From Candidatus Desulfolinea nitratireducens (lineage in GTDB: Bacteria > Chloroflexota > Anaerolineae > Anaerolineales > Villigracilaceae), in contig JACNJN010000137.1 of NCBI GenBank assembly GCA_014382535.1, forward strand, positions 1 through 45,516: a DNA stretch of 45,516 nt, read 5' to 3'. Shown in pieces: positions 1,557-32,703 of the stretch (positions are counted from its first letter, which is position 1; each line of letters begins with the position of its first letter). The translations under genes and the position numbers were made by a program. Under the pieces are notes generated by a model that searched no databases, was not told the DNA's origin, and saw only the letters and a list, made by a program, of their open reading frames with translations.

Positions 1557-2996
1557 TTACTTACTCAATACCTTCAAAACAAACTCAGCCGTCCTCTTGC
1601 CTGAGGTCGCATCGGTAAAGGTGATCTCCTGTTCGATGAAGGCTTTGCGCTCAGCGCCATCCAGCGTGGGGTCATTCAGGTAGGCGTTGACCACATCACG
1701 CAATTCGCTTTCGGTGGCAGCCACTCGCCCGGCATTCGCTTCCCTAAAGCGTAAATGCGTCGGCCAGCCACCGATCTTCTGCAGTGCCAGCGAGTATTTT
1801 CCGGGCTTGTTCCAGCCGCCGAGAGTATCGATCACTGCCGCCACGATCGGGCGGTTGTGAACAGCCGCCTCGACCACCATCGTCGAGTAGACCGTCACAA
1901 AAACGTCGGAATAGGCCATCATGGATGTTTTCTCATCCATATCTTCGCCACCATAATAGCCAAGGGACCCGCCAAGGGCAACTGGGCGGACAACGTGGAC
2001 GTTGGCGTGCTTCTCTTCGAGAGCATGGATCTGCGCCCGTTCTTCAGCGAAAATTTCCGGCTTGTCCTGAAAATGGCTGGGGTGCAGACGAATCAGGAGT
2101 TGGCTTGGCTCATCTAATTGCCCCAAATTCACTATTTTAGCAAGAGCTTCCACGTTGGGGAAATTCGGCGCAAAGTGGACAAAGGAACAGGCATAGGAAA
2201 TTAGCTTGCGACTTGGGTTGAGATTATGCAGTTTGAAATACTCTTCCCTTGACATCAACCACGTTTTACGGAAATAGCCATCGTAGGAGGGAATCCCGCC
2301 AATATGCACGTGCGATGCCTCCCAATCGGAGCCGAGCACCAATTCCTCTTTTTGCTTCTCAGACCAGCAAGTTGCCCAATCCATGAATGCGCCGGGGATG
2401 GCGTAGCTGCTCGGATTATCCCATCCGATGATGGCTGCCATTGTCGGAATCCCGTTCTTCTTTGCTTCGCCGAGCAGATAGCGGTCCACGCGCCAACCCG
2501 CGGTCGAGGCGATCACCAAATCCGGTTGATATTTTTCGAAGAGGTCCCTATAAATCCCGGGGGTGAATCTCATCTGCATTCTAACGAGCATTTTGCGCGC
2601 CCATTTGCTGGAGCGCAGCAGGATGATCATCAGTGCGGAGGGCAGCCAAATCCCGATTCGGAATTTCCAGGTATTTTCTTTGAGCACTTCCCAGATGTGG
2701 CTGTCTTCGGCTTGGTTGTTGATGCGCCACGAGCCGCCGACGCGACGAAGATAGATGAGCAAGGCTTGCAGGCGCGGCTGAACGCTTTTAGCGTAGGCGT
2801 TAGCTTCTTTCAGGCGCAAGCCCTCGAAGATCAGATTTGGTTGCCCGAACCGCTCAGCGATGCGGTCTTTGGTCTCGTCATCGGTAAAAAGGACGACTTC
2901 GACGCCCACATCAAGCAGGGTCTGGACAACGTCGCTTTGCAGGAAGTAGATCAGTGCCATACCGTGGTCGGCGATGATGAAAATGCGTTTGGTCAT
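1557..2996 (-). CDS. GT-B-type glycosyl/glycerophosphotransferase-like protein
   Basis: This 479-residue protein is of the CDP-glycerol glycerophosphotransferase/capsule glycosyltransferase type. The N-terminus (FIIADHGMALIYFLQS) looks like the first beta strand of a GT-B fold. A hydrophobic segment lies near residues 115-130, and the C-terminal half has the phrase AYSDVFVTVYSTMVVEAAVH with the conserved Ser-Thr-x-x-x-Glu pattern of the nucleotide-binding domain. The ATG at 2996 overlaps the TGA of the upstream GT2 gene by four bases (ATGA), so the two are probably translationally coupled. The donor and acceptor are unknown. It is most likely a chain-building or decorating transferase for the locus glycan. 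Confidence 0.65.
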   Translation of the reverse strand: MTKRIFIIADHGMALIYFLQSDVVQTLLDVGVEVVLFTDDETKDRIAERFGQPNLIFEGLRLKEANAYAKSVQPRLQALLIYLRRVGGSWRINNQAEDSHIWEVLKENTWKFRIGIWLPSALMIILLRSSKWARKMLVRMQMRFTPGIYRDLFEKYQPDLVIASTAGWRVDRYLLGEAKKNGIPTMAAIIGWDNPSSYAIPGAFMDWATCWSEKQKEELVLGSDWEASHVHIGGIPSYDGYFRKTWLMSREEYFKLHNLNPSRKLISYACSFVHFAPNFPNVEALAKIVNLGQLDEPSQLLIRLHPSHFQDKPEIFAEERAQIHALEEKHANVHVVRPVALGGSLGYYGGEDMDEKTSMMAYSDVFVTVYSTMVVEAAVHNRPIVAAVIDTLGGWNKPGKYSLALQKIGGWPTHLRFREANAGRVAATESELRDVVNAYLNDPTLDGAERKAFIEQEITFTDATSGKRTAEFVLKVLSK

Positions 2997-4027
2997 GAAT
3001 AATACCGTTTGAAAATCCAGTTATAGATCGCCAACAAAACCTTCTTGACCGGCGCAAAATGCCAAATGGATGCAGATTTCCTCTCAATCTTCTCCTGCCC
3101 CATTTCGCCACGCAGATAACCCAGCGTATTGGACAAATTCATCACCAGCGGATCGGAAACCATCAGGCGCAGGAGACCAGCTTCGTTCATCCGCTCATCG
3201 AGCTGACGGACCTGCCCCATCGGGCGGGACATGTCGAAGGGCAGAAATTGCTGGAGGGTGGATTTATAGGCCACAAATTGCCAATGGGATGCACCAGCGA
3301 GAGCCGTCACTGCGGGCTTTTTTTTCGATCGCGTAGCATTTCGTAGAGAAGCAGTCTCCCTCTCAGTCGAGGAGATTGCTTCGGTCGCTTCGCTTCCTCG
3401 CAATGACGAGGAATAGGTTATTTTCCAATCTCGCGTCTCATCATATACCTTTAGATTTTCTTTCTCGGTCTGCCCAAGGGAGAGATTGAATTCCAGGAAG
3501 GTCTCCCAGGGGATGAATTGCCCTTCTTCACAGGTCGCATTTTTCTGCGCCCACTCGACTGTGGATGAATAAAATTCAGGTGGCGTACGGAAAGGGCGGG
3601 CTGTGACCATGCCCACATTCGGGAAGGTCTCCAAAATTTCAACTGAGCGCGCCAGCCAATTGGGGTAGTAAAGAATATCGCTATCAGCGTAGGCGATAAT
3701 CTCGCCTGGCGCCCCTGCCAGGATCATATTCCACGCCCCGCCCTTACCAACATTCTTCTCCGAAAGCAGCAAATACTGGATACGCCCAGCTTCTTTTTCT
3801 GCGATCAGATAATCCCGTGCTTCGGCGCAGGAACCGTTGTCGAAAACCATCAAGTCGAAGGGCAGACCGGCATCTTTGCGCATGGATTCGAGACTGGCTT
3901 TGAGTACATCCAGTCCCTCTTCATAAAAGCCACTTAAAAAGGGAAGATAGGTCAAAACGGCAACGGTGATCCTCTCTGGCTTGACCACTTCCTTGACGAA
4001 TTTGGCGGGGTTTTGTCCTTTTCTCAT
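2993..4027 (-). CDS. Family 2 glycosyltransferase carrying an in-frame repeat insertion
   Basis: This 344-residue GT-A enzyme has VFDNGS at residues 61-66, NVGKGGAWN at 92-100 and the metal-binding DSD at 115-117, all classic GT2 landmarks. The ATG at 4027 is preferred. A TTG 11 codons earlier is also open but would lie in a less typical leader. Residues 207-241 (SLRGSEATEAIS and the following Ser/Thr/Lys-rich stretch) do not look like GT2 sequence. They are the translation of a 102-bp palindromic repeat at 3306-3407 that keeps the frame open. Without it the protein would be about 310 residues. It overlaps the next gene by four bases. It probably adds one sugar during repeat-unit or chain assembly. 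Confidence 0.85.
   Translation of the reverse strand: MRKGQNPAKFVKEVVKPERITVAVLTYLPFLSGFYEEGLDVLKASLESMRKDAGLPFDLMVFDNGSCAEARDYLIAEKEAGRIQYLLLSEKNVGKGGAWNMILAGAPGEIIAYADSDILYYPNWLARSVEILETFPNVGMVTARPFRTPPEFYSSTVEWAQKNATCEEGQFIPWETFLEFNLSLGQTEKENLKVYDETRDWKITYSSSLRGSEATEAISSTERETASLRNATRSKKKPAVTALAGASHWQFVAYKSTLQQFLPFDMSRPMGQVRQLDERMNEAGLLRLMVSDPLVMNLSNTLGYLRGEMGQEKIERKSASIWHFAPVKKVLLAIYNWIFKRYYS
3306..3407. repeat. 102-bp palindromic element inside the GT2 coding sequence
   Basis: On the minus strand the element begins GTCATTGCGAGGAAGCGAAG and ends near CCGCAGTGAC, with a GAAGCAATCTCC/GGAGACTGCTTC pair inside, so it is a decayed inverted repeat. It is 34 codons long, contains no stop in the host frame and is translated. 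It shares its ends and core with the element at 5608-5694. The GTCATTGCGAG...GAAGCAATCT sequence type is known as a dispersed repeat in several bacterial genomes. Confidence 0.85.
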
Positions 4028-4082: not shown

Positions 4083-4991
4083 CTATTTCCCAATTATCTT
4101 TTTGAATATTTTAGCCCAACGCTTGGGACGGACGACTTTTTCCACTTTCTCTTCTTTCAAAAAGAAAAAGAGTTTACGCAGAAACTGTTCCACACCGCGC
4201 CAGAAGCGTCCACTTGTCAGGCGAGGGCGGGTGATTTTACCATCCCGCAGTTGGCGCTTGGTATCTTTGATCGTATAACGCGTTACCGCAGCGCCGCCCG
4301 CCATCTGCATATTCTCATCGGTTTCGGGCAAATTATAATGAATTTCTCCAGTGGGCAGATGCCGATAGTCGTGGTTCTGATGCACGATCATCACATCCGG
4401 CGTGGCATCAATCGTCGTCCACTTCTCAGCGCGCGCCTTGAAGATCATCCAATTATCCCAGCCAGCACGCCCAATTGCAAAATCGGGGATGTCCATATAA
4501 CAAGCGCGCGGGAAGATGAAATAGTCGCTCCCGGCGGGGCGATGTAATTGACCTTCTTTTTGGATATTTTTTTTTAATCGGGATTGCCAATCTTCAGAAA
4601 ATTCCATTGGTTGGGTAACATCCAGATCCCAGCGCTGTCCCATTAAAACGAATTTCTCGAAACGTGACACGATCCTTTGGCTTGCACCCACTATTTCATT
4701 CATCAGCAGGATGTCGGTATTGATGATCCCCAAAAGCGGACTCTCGCTATTTTCGCGCGCCAACGCAAACATGGAGGAGATTAACGGCGTCCCGTTCTCG
4801 TTGAGTTCCACCTTTGGGAGGTGGAGCACGCCCAAATCGCGGGCGGCTTCGGCAAGACCCTCCTCGTCCCCCAGCAGGATGACATCCACATCCGGGAGAT
4901 GAGTCCACGAGGCAATCGCGTTCCGCTGAATGGTCGCAATATGCGGATCAGTGAAGGGTTTTGGGGAGGAAAATAAAGTAAGCAGTGTCAT
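4083..4991 (-). CDS. GT-A-fold-like protein, probable glycan biosynthesis
   Basis: The protein has 302 residues. It begins MTLLTLFSSPKPF and has SPLLGIINTDILLMNE near residues 92-107, which resembles the donor-binding region of GT-A sugar transferases (hydrophobic strand followed by NTD in place of DxD). GWDNWMIFKAR near 178-188 resembles the acceptor-side WD(N)W pattern of such enzymes. The C-terminal 40 residues are strongly basic (KKLFFFLKEEKVEKVVRPKR), which could contact the membrane. I cannot name the exact family. The gene stands alone between the GT2 gene and a dispersed repeat. No clear Shine-Dalgarno precedes the ATG at 4991, perhaps because the repeat sits directly upstream. Confidence 0.55.
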   Translation of the reverse strand: MTLLTLFSSPKPFTDPHIATIQRNAIASWTHLPDVDVILLGDEEGLAEAARDLGVLHLPKVELNENGTPLISSMFALARENSESPLLGIINTDILLMNEIVGASQRIVSRFEKFVLMGQRWDLDVTQPMEFSEDWQSRLKKNIQKEGQLHRPAGSDYFIFPRACYMDIPDFAIGRAGWDNWMIFKARAEKWTTIDATPDVMIVHQNHDYRHLPTGEIHYNLPETDENMQMAGGAAVTRYTIKDTKRQLRDGKITRPRLTSGRFWRGVEQFLRKLFFFLKEEKVEKVVRPKRWAKIFKKIIGK

Positions 4992-5005: not shown

Positions 5006-5172
5006 AGTCTCTGAGCGGAACATCGAATGAAGTGAGATGTGTTGTCGCCTGTACCCGAATGGGTGAAGAGCGGCGTTTGTGGAACCCGTCCTTTACCCTC
5101 TCGGGTACAGGCGTCTGCGCTCCCTATCGGTCGCTCCGCTCACACCGTCCCGGTATCCTTCGGGAGGAGCTG
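5006..5172. repeat. Dispersed 167-bp intergenic repeat, copy A
   Basis: This copy fills almost the whole gap between 4991 and 5176. It is an imperfect inverted match to 24171-24339. Shared blocks include GTCTCTGAGCGGA at one end, GGGTGAAGAGCGGC in the middle, and CACCGTCCCGGTATCCTTCG followed by GGAGG at the other end. Internal GTACCCGA/TCGGGTAC pairs make it partly palindromic. Its edge stops three bases from the stop codon of the SpsF-like gene. Confidence 0.85.
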
Positions 5173-5175
5173 TGT

Positions 5176-6042
5176 TTATTCCATCAAAGTTTTATGGTGC
5201 ACATCAGCATTGATCTTTGCCAGCTCGGGTTCACGGTCGAGCAAAGCGAGAATGTCGTGCCATGAAAAATCATCATTATTAAAACGGCCAAAAATTTCTC
5301 GGATAAATTCAAGGTCTTCAGGTGTATCCACCGTCCAGCGGAGAGCGCCGTAATCGAGGTCGTGATTGAGTAAGGCTATCCTAAAGTTACGCTGAGAAAC
5401 CCCGGTTGAAAGGTTTGCATGTTGAAAGGTTTGCAAGTTTACGCCTTCGTACAGATAAGGCATAACGTGCTCACGCTGGTGCTTTTCGGTGGCATTCGTC
5501 CAGGCGTTTTCAAGAGCGGCAAAGGTGCAAACTTCGGTATCCAGACCAATCGGGAAAGTGCGTCCCATTGGCGGTGGGAGGCGGTTGGCGACAAAATCAA
5601 AATTCATGTCACCACGAGGAGCAAGCTCTCGCGACGCGGCAGTCTCCGCACTCATAGAGGGGGATTGCTTCGTCACCTCGTTCCTCGCAATGACGGCGAT
5701 GGTTTGATCTACCACATCTGGATCGAGCACCGGGCAATCTGCCGTTAAACGGACAATGATCTCTGCTTCATATTCTCTCGCTGCCTGATAGTAACGATCA
5801 AGAACATCGTTCAGGCTACCGCGGGTAAAGTTATATCCTCGTTCGGCACAGAACTCCGCAATAGGGTCATCGCTGGGATCAGTGGTTGTTGCAACAATAA
5901 CTTGATCTACCAATTTGGCGCATAGAGCACGCTCAACGACGCGGGCGAGCATCGGCTCTCCGCCAATATCGAGGAGTACCTTTCCTGGCAAACGGGAGGA
6001 GGACATACGGGCCTGGATAATGGCAATTGTGCGAGGTTTCAT
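5176..6042 (-). CDS. spsF: SpsF-like cytidylyltransferase with an in-frame repeat insertion
   Basis: This is a nucleotidyltransferase of the CMP-sugar synthetase/SpsF type. The nucleotide-binding signature IIQARMSSSRLPGKVL is at residues 8-23 and RLTADCP is at 98-104. The ATG at 6042 is chosen because the 12 codons upstream lie in a CACAAAG-type repeat. Residues 117-145 (VIARNEVTKQSP onward) are the translation of an 87-bp palindromic element, placed between DVVDQTIA and NFDFVANR, where relatives have a short loop. Without it the protein is about 259 residues, close to the family's usual size. It would activate a sugar acid or similar with CTP, which fits the NeuB-family synthase at 13.4-14.5 kb. 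The insert may or may not be tolerated by the enzyme. Confidence 0.82.
   Translation of the reverse strand: MKPRTIAIIQARMSSSRLPGKVLLDIGGEPMLARVVERALCAKLVDQVIVATTTDPSDDPIAEFCAERGYNFTRGSLNDVLDRYYQAAREYEAEIIVRLTADCPVLDPDVVDQTIAVIARNEVTKQSPSMSAETAASRELAPRGDMNFDFVANRLPPPMGRTFPIGLDTEVCTFAALENAWTNATEKHQREHVMPYLYEGVNLQTFQHANLSTGVSQRNFRIALLNHDLDYGALRWTVDTPEDLEFIREIFGRFNNDDFSWHDILALLDREPELAKINADVHHKTLME
5608..5694. repeat. 87-bp palindromic element inside the SpsF-like coding sequence
   Basis: On the minus strand the ends are GTCATTGCGAGGA and TCCTCGTGGTGAC, which are imperfect inverted repeats, with GAAGCAATCCCCC inside. The length is exactly 29 codons and no stop occurs in the host frame. It is the same family as 3306-3407 but is read in a different frame (GTC ATT GCG here, TCA TTG CGA there). 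Confidence 0.85.
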
Positions 6043-19029: not shown

Positions 19030-19040
19030 ATTTATCTCAT

Positions 19041-19110
19041 GCCCTCACCCCGTCCTTGCTTCGCTCGGACTCCCCTCTCCCGCAAGCGGGAGAGGGGTTG
19101 GGGGTGAGGG
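19041..19110. repeat. 70-bp dispersed palindromic repeat, copy A
   Basis: This copy runs from GCCCTCACCCCGTCCTTGCT to GGGGTTGGGGGTGAGGG, with a central hairpin CCCCTCTCCCGC/GCGGGAGAGGGG. It is the reverse complement of 32604-32673 and differs from it only in two hairpin-loop bases (GCAAGC here, GCGCGC there). Confidence 0.92.
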
Positions 19111-24145: not shown

Positions 24146-24170
24146 ATGAATCTCCAATTTATAAGCTACC

Positions 24171-24339
24171 CAGTTCCTCCCGAAGGATACCGGGACGGTG
24201 TGTGCGGAAGGCGACTGCTCGTGAGTCTGTAGTCGCCTGTACTCGACAGAGTGAAGGACGGTTTCTTTGCAAAGCCGCTCTTCACCCTATCGGGTACTGC
24301 CGACTTCGACTTGCTACCCTTCGTCTCCGCTCAGAGACT
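24171..24339. repeat. Dispersed 167-bp intergenic repeat, copy B
   Basis: This copy is the inverted counterpart of 5006-5172. It begins CAGTTCCTCCCGAAGGATAC and CCGGGACGGTGTG, has GCCGCTCTTCACCC in the middle, and ends TCCGCTCAGAGACT. Similarity is patchy in the variable parts and high in these blocks. It lies 25 bases upstream of the Fcl-like start. Confidence 0.85.
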
Positions 24340-32603: not shown

Positions 32604-32673
32604 CCCTCACCCCCAACCCCTCTCCCGCGCGCGGGAGAGGGGAGTCCGAGCGAAGCAAGGACGGGGTGAGGGC
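32604..32673. repeat. 70-bp dispersed palindromic repeat, copy B
   Basis: This is the inverted copy of 19041-19110, matching in all but two bases of the hairpin loop. It starts two bases after the stop of the binding-protein gene and may act as its terminator (CCCCTCTCCCGC/GCGGGAGAGGGG stem). Confidence 0.92.
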
Positions 32674-32703
32674 AAAAAAGCGGTATAATCCCAAGCCGAA
32701 ACT

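Follow-up and report, generated by a model that had tools for sequence, protein, structure and literature searches.

The window, as we call the whole 45,516-nt stretch analysed, is contig C198 of the 3.65 Mb draft genome of Candidatus Desulfolinea nitratireducens (223 contigs). Two of its minus-strand genes each carry a copy of the same palindromic repeat, with GTC...GAC ends in both cases:

2993-4024, minus strand: family 2 glycosyltransferase (GT2) gene, 343 aa from the ATG at 4024, intact (Pfam Glycos_transf_2, E 7e-13).
3306-3407: repeat copy in the GT2 gene, 102 nt, with arms 3306-3359 and 3371-3407 and loop 3360-3370 (covariance-model E 3.5e-6).
5176-6042, minus strand: spsF-like cytidylyltransferase gene, 288 aa from the ATG at 6042, intact (Pfam CTP_transf_3, E 3.7e-35).
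5608-5694: repeat copy in spsF, 87 nt, with arms 5608-5647 and 5661-5694 and loop 5648-5660 (covariance-model E 4.7e-13 genome-wide).

Other dispersed repeats also occur in the window. One of them, also palindromic (CGCCTGTACCCGA...CGGGTACAGGCG), is at 5046-5113, between the gene at 4083-4991 and spsF, with related copies at 24168-24304, and a further one forms a 71-nt inverted pair at 19040-19110 and 32604-32674 (97% complementary, core CCCCTCTCCCGCAAGCGGGAGAGGGG).

Both in-gene copies are inverted repeats, and the original prediction that they share ends and core holds: their right arms are 83% identical, and a single covariance model matches both in a whole-genome search. This model was built from 18 copies of the same genome, including the one in spsF but not the one in the GT2 gene. 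Under identical end definitions, the two lengths are multiples of three, as had been noticed. Read on the minus strand, the spsF copy encodes 29 residues (V117-D145) as VIARNEVTKQSP...APRGD and the GT2 copy reads SLRGSEATEAIS...AVT. These are two different frames of the repeat (VIARNEV... against SLRGSEA...), again in agreement with the prediction; the translations in the two genes are VIARNEVTKQSPSMSAETAASRELAPRGD and SLRGSEATEAISSTERETASLRNATRSKKKPAVT. The TCATTGCGAG motif has 38 exact occurrences in the genome, against 4 for the reversed pattern. Given this excess and the approximately 70 copies of the family found genome-wide, chance resemblance between the two window copies is excluded.

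The structural unit of the repeat is smaller than the palindrome. Arms keep ATTGC and GCAAT around a variable interior of about 9-25 nt, which itself folds (mean of -4.05 kcal/mol, compared with -2.28 kcal/mol for shuffled sequences). Among the 166 arms readable at both letters of the second stem position, 124 have T-A, 37 have C-G and 5 are discordant, although the 161 concordant arms share descent and are not independent events. The same arms revealed no such link between the two arms of one copy. Since pairing covaries within arms and the interior folds, the unit is a [C/T]GTC-tagged hairpin, two of which form the element in inverted orientation; a single full palindrome was set aside as the structural unit, the covariation being within arms and not between them. 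Over three genomes, 229 of 412 arms have the TGTC tag and 80 the CGTC tag. All the copies listed are inverted dimers, in a search whose model was itself built from dimers. Some copies have end subtypes with matching changes on both sides, namely GTCATTGCGAG/CTCGCAATGAC, GTCTTTGCGAG paired with CTCGCAAAGAC or CTCGCAGAGAC, and GATTCTGCGAG/CTCGCAGAATC; they were seen in L002, L003, L007, L008, L302 and in the C14 copy in L100.

The repeat is dispersed throughout the genome and lies mostly between genes. The covariance model identified about 70 copies when the best 150 candidates were scored, a number to which weaker copies may add, and the family is present in 79 of 100 relatives. One genome of the same genus, G002, lacks any match at E 1e-4, against 6 to 41 or more matches in its congeners, which suggests that the agent spreading the repeat was lost or is absent there. 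To place copies relative to genes, the DNA on both sides of each was scored for open frames and codon usage. Only 6 of the 70 copies of the genome are within genes and the remainder lie between open reading frames, although bacterial genomes are mostly coding (we assumed a typical coding fraction of 0.85 to judge this depletion). The genes that hold copies are spsF, the GT2 gene, tilS, and those encoding a GHMP kinase resembling mevalonate kinase, an FAD-linked oxidase with an Fe-S domain, and a membrane-like protein without a Pfam family. None of the 16 intergenic copies with close open reading frames on both sides splits a disrupted gene: the ends that face each other come from two separate genes that look complete. 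Twelve further in-gene copies were identified in G016 (same family) and G007 (same genus), giving 18 over the three genomes. The genes hit in these two genomes include those of a UvrD helicase, an alanine racemase, a proline racemase, MoeA, SIR2, an AMP-binding enzyme and an APH-type kinase, and for several of the genes hit the insertion is within the domain itself.

The protein encoded by spsF, whose nearest named relatives come from metagenome genomes of Anaerolineae, allows a closer view of one such insertion. Its predicted structure has a mean pLDDT of 90.3, with values above 90 nearly everywhere except over most of the insert (residues 117-145), where they drop to 53-70. The insert extends from the end of helix 108-126 as far as strand 150-152 and is thus predicted to be a disordered loop between helix and strand. 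Decay of the active site had been named as one of two observations that would speak against tolerance. We see none: the protein keeps the columns that are invariant among 28 aligned relatives, and Foldseek aligns its model with the cytidylyltransferase 6oew at a TMt of 0.92. The insert is shared, in a diverged form, with G003; the same loop has a different repeat in G007 (NQYSVISGQYE) and none in G008.

In the GT2 protein, the insert was placed between residues 205 and 238. The orthologues in G001, G002, G003 and G008 are empty, their sequence running straight through; compared with them, the gene has gained 96 nt net (32 codons), 6 nt below the length of the element. The empty site already has GTGAC, a match to the repeat end. 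For SIR2 of G007, comparison with the empty G001 and G003 gives a net gain of 81 nt, exactly the length of the element, and shows no visible target duplication. The shorter net insert and the pre-existing GTGAC of the GT2 gene indicate that the insertion rule is not uniform. The GT2 gene of G005 has the same insert, seven codons shorter and with the frame unchanged. At the same place, G012, from another genus, has a repeat of this type and G010 a different one. Similarly, the mevalonate kinase loop has this repeat in our genome, G004 and G007, an eroded form of it in G006, and other sequences in G002, G003 and G008. The loops of SpsF, GT2 and mevalonate kinase thus appear to be recurrent sites of tolerance.

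Inserts that resemble other dispersed repeats were observed at the SpsF loop in L342, L345, G007 and G001, at the GT2 loop in G010 and at the mevalonate kinase loop in G002; the sequences seen at these loops are VTGHYSLVTDH, LLTVHHSLFTDH, NQYSVISGQYE, PSTSLRSAQGG and PPSVLRTSPPEGG. The mevalonate kinase-like gene of our genome (L086, C140) also carries, downstream of its REP insert, another insert that resembles a repeat (APSALRASPPQAGEKKSPPRSRGGRKGG).

The in-gene copies follow a rule of length that the intergenic ones lack. In our genome, the lengths of 6 out of 6 in-gene copies are divisible by three (81-102 nt by model ends; the repeat in tilS may reach 126 nt, likewise divisible by three), whereas the 57 better intergenic copies have remainders modulo three of 19/18/20. 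The rule holds for 4 of 5 in-gene copies in G016 and for 6 of 7 in G007, where the intergenic remainders of the two genomes together are 49/36/46. When the three genomes are pooled, multiples of three make up 16 of 18 in-gene lengths and 68 of 188 intergenic ones (Fisher p 1.6e-5). The two exceptions measure 76 and 88 nt, and the latter (G007:C92) has a net insert of 96 nt relative to empty orthologues, which is still a whole number of codons. Because an open frame across the element was the criterion for recognising in-gene copies, the keeping of frame is to some extent a product of the method; the length rule, though related, does not follow from it by necessity, in a sample of 18 copies from three genomes only. 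As intergenic copies have no length bias, the rule is best understood as a filter on survivors.

Translations of these 18 copies use the VIAR frame in 11 cases, the SLRG frame in 7 and the HCE frame in none, an absence that would occur by chance with a probability of 7e-4 under equal frame use. The density of stops in the second arm is 0.058 for the HCEERSDEA frame, compared with 0.012 and 0.017 for the others: when the length is divisible by three, the terminal CAATGAC puts a TGA in this frame and closes it. An apparent use of the third frame, at G007:C205:4732, was not retained, since a plausible start codon lies downstream of the copy; it is counted among the intergenic copies above. Lengths and frames in genes are non-random, as the original prediction supposed.

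We consider it very probable that the copies of this REP-like repeat found in genes are those that passed a survivor filter. The peptide they add most likely has no function of its own and would be translated as a disordered loop. In this reading, the element is non-autonomous and made of two inverted hairpin units, each running [C/T]GTC-ATTGC-variable inner hairpin-GCAAT-CTCC. A copy within a gene would persist only if it adds whole codons, leaves a stop-free frame and occupies a tolerant loop of the protein; the lengths, the frames and one modelled loop are as described above, and from these we infer selection on survivors. Arms are poor in stops and their sole conserved stop, the TGA, falls in one frame, so two frames per strand are usable at lengths divisible by three and the two window copies can be read differently. 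One could ask instead if selection shaped the family into a portable coding module, its stop-free frames and codon-sized lengths being adaptations. The two usable frames per strand fit this idea, as does the count of stop-free frames in intergenic copies (3.0 of 6, compared with 2.48 +/- 0.13 in shuffles), but the latter is a modest excess that the conservation of the arm sequence explains. Intergenic lengths show no preference for multiples of three, most copies are intergenic, and the insert peptides are poorly conserved, which makes such shaping very improbable. Hence, of the original proposal that the family is tolerated, or even shaped, for coding in more than one frame, tolerance is supported by the frames and lengths in genes, and shaping is not supported, given the even intergenic remainders.

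It is extremely improbable that the genes are dying or misassembled and their frames open by accident, even considering that the assembly is a draft in 223 contigs. Both genes have coding-like flanks and Pfam matches, the invariant residues of SpsF are preserved, and separate assemblies of related species show inserts at the same sites. Furthermore, pN/pS ranges from 0.08 to 0.22 outside the inserts and from 0.43 to 1.16 within them (0.22 and 1.16, respectively, for spsF; 0.08 and 0.58 for GT2), a contrast showing that the genes are constrained and the inserts much less so. The cores of in-gene copies are nevertheless kept better than neutral decay predicts, a pattern that a pure passenger would not show. 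In four orthologous pairs, with core positions defined on one member of each, hairpin cores changed at 13 of 152 sites (9%) and variable parts at 55 of 188 (29%; Fisher p 1.3e-6); pS is 0.17-0.34 in the inserts, below the 0.42-0.59 of the genes. The mevalonate kinase copy of G007 even ties for the best score of its genome, though G004 and our genome have the insertion too. Hairpins may be kept in genes, copies may be converted, or the same loop may have been hit more than once. A reading in which in-gene copies are not passive, a cellular role or conversion between copies preserving their cores at the level of DNA or RNA, fits these data, but independent insertions that struck one loop repeatedly would produce an identical pattern, the pairs are only four, and changes in the SpsF core reach 22%. 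We therefore regard this reading as unlikely, and quite unlikely its specific form in which copies are held as DNA or RNA hairpins while being translated, one sequence serving as both nucleic-acid structure and protein loop.

The proposed survivor filter acting on a REP-like element can be placed among known systems. REPs with a GTAG tag and RAYT transposases are short hairpin units often found as inverted pairs; our repeat resembles them in this respect and differs by its tag, and no repeat match was found in the loci of eight Y1-type transposase (Y1_Tnp) genes of the genome. The superfamily of CGTC-tagged REPs, which includes RPE-4, RPE-6 and the neisserial dRS3, has a terminal CGTC (often TGTC or CCTC), stems of 8-9 bp and loops of 4-5 nt; its members are predominantly inverted dimers, mostly intergenic, lack a dedicated adjoining transposase, and some lie in genes, where they encode 20-30 residues (Di Nocera et al. 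2013, PMC3733652). Our repeat shares with them the CGTC/TGTC tag, the AT at the start of the stem, the mostly intergenic location with some intragenic units, and the lack of a linked transposase. The copies retrieved here, by a model built from dimers, are inverted dimers as well. However, its outer stem has 5-6 bp around a variable inner hairpin, and the five phyla listed in that work do not include Chloroflexota. Palindromic elements of Rickettsia, of about 100-150 nt, are translated in frame in unrelated metabolic genes (Ogata et al. 2000, 2002, reviewed in PMC10969869). Our repeat resembles them in that it inserts in frame into conserved genes of which empty orthologues exist, a likeness that may be taken as one of behaviour; it differs in phylum, in lying mostly between genes and in using two frames. 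We class the repeat as a variant of the CGTC-REP/Rickettsia-palindromic-element kind that falls outside CGTC families 1 to 4, from which it differs in stem and loop size. Text searches of the literature for its sequence returned nothing recognisably about this repeat, and Rfam gave no match at the element, its weak matches all falling elsewhere.

The best-known in-frame palindromic repeats are those of Rickettsia, whose reduced genomes make them harder to interpret. Their behaviour is now seen in another phylum, Chloroflexota, with statistics that can be counted: the many copies, sister genomes and empty orthologues make accessible the rate at which genes are hit, the lengths and frames that survive, and the loops that accept an insertion. 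The loops of SpsF, the glycosyltransferase and mevalonate kinase, which hold different repeat families in different species, are natural maps of insertion tolerance.
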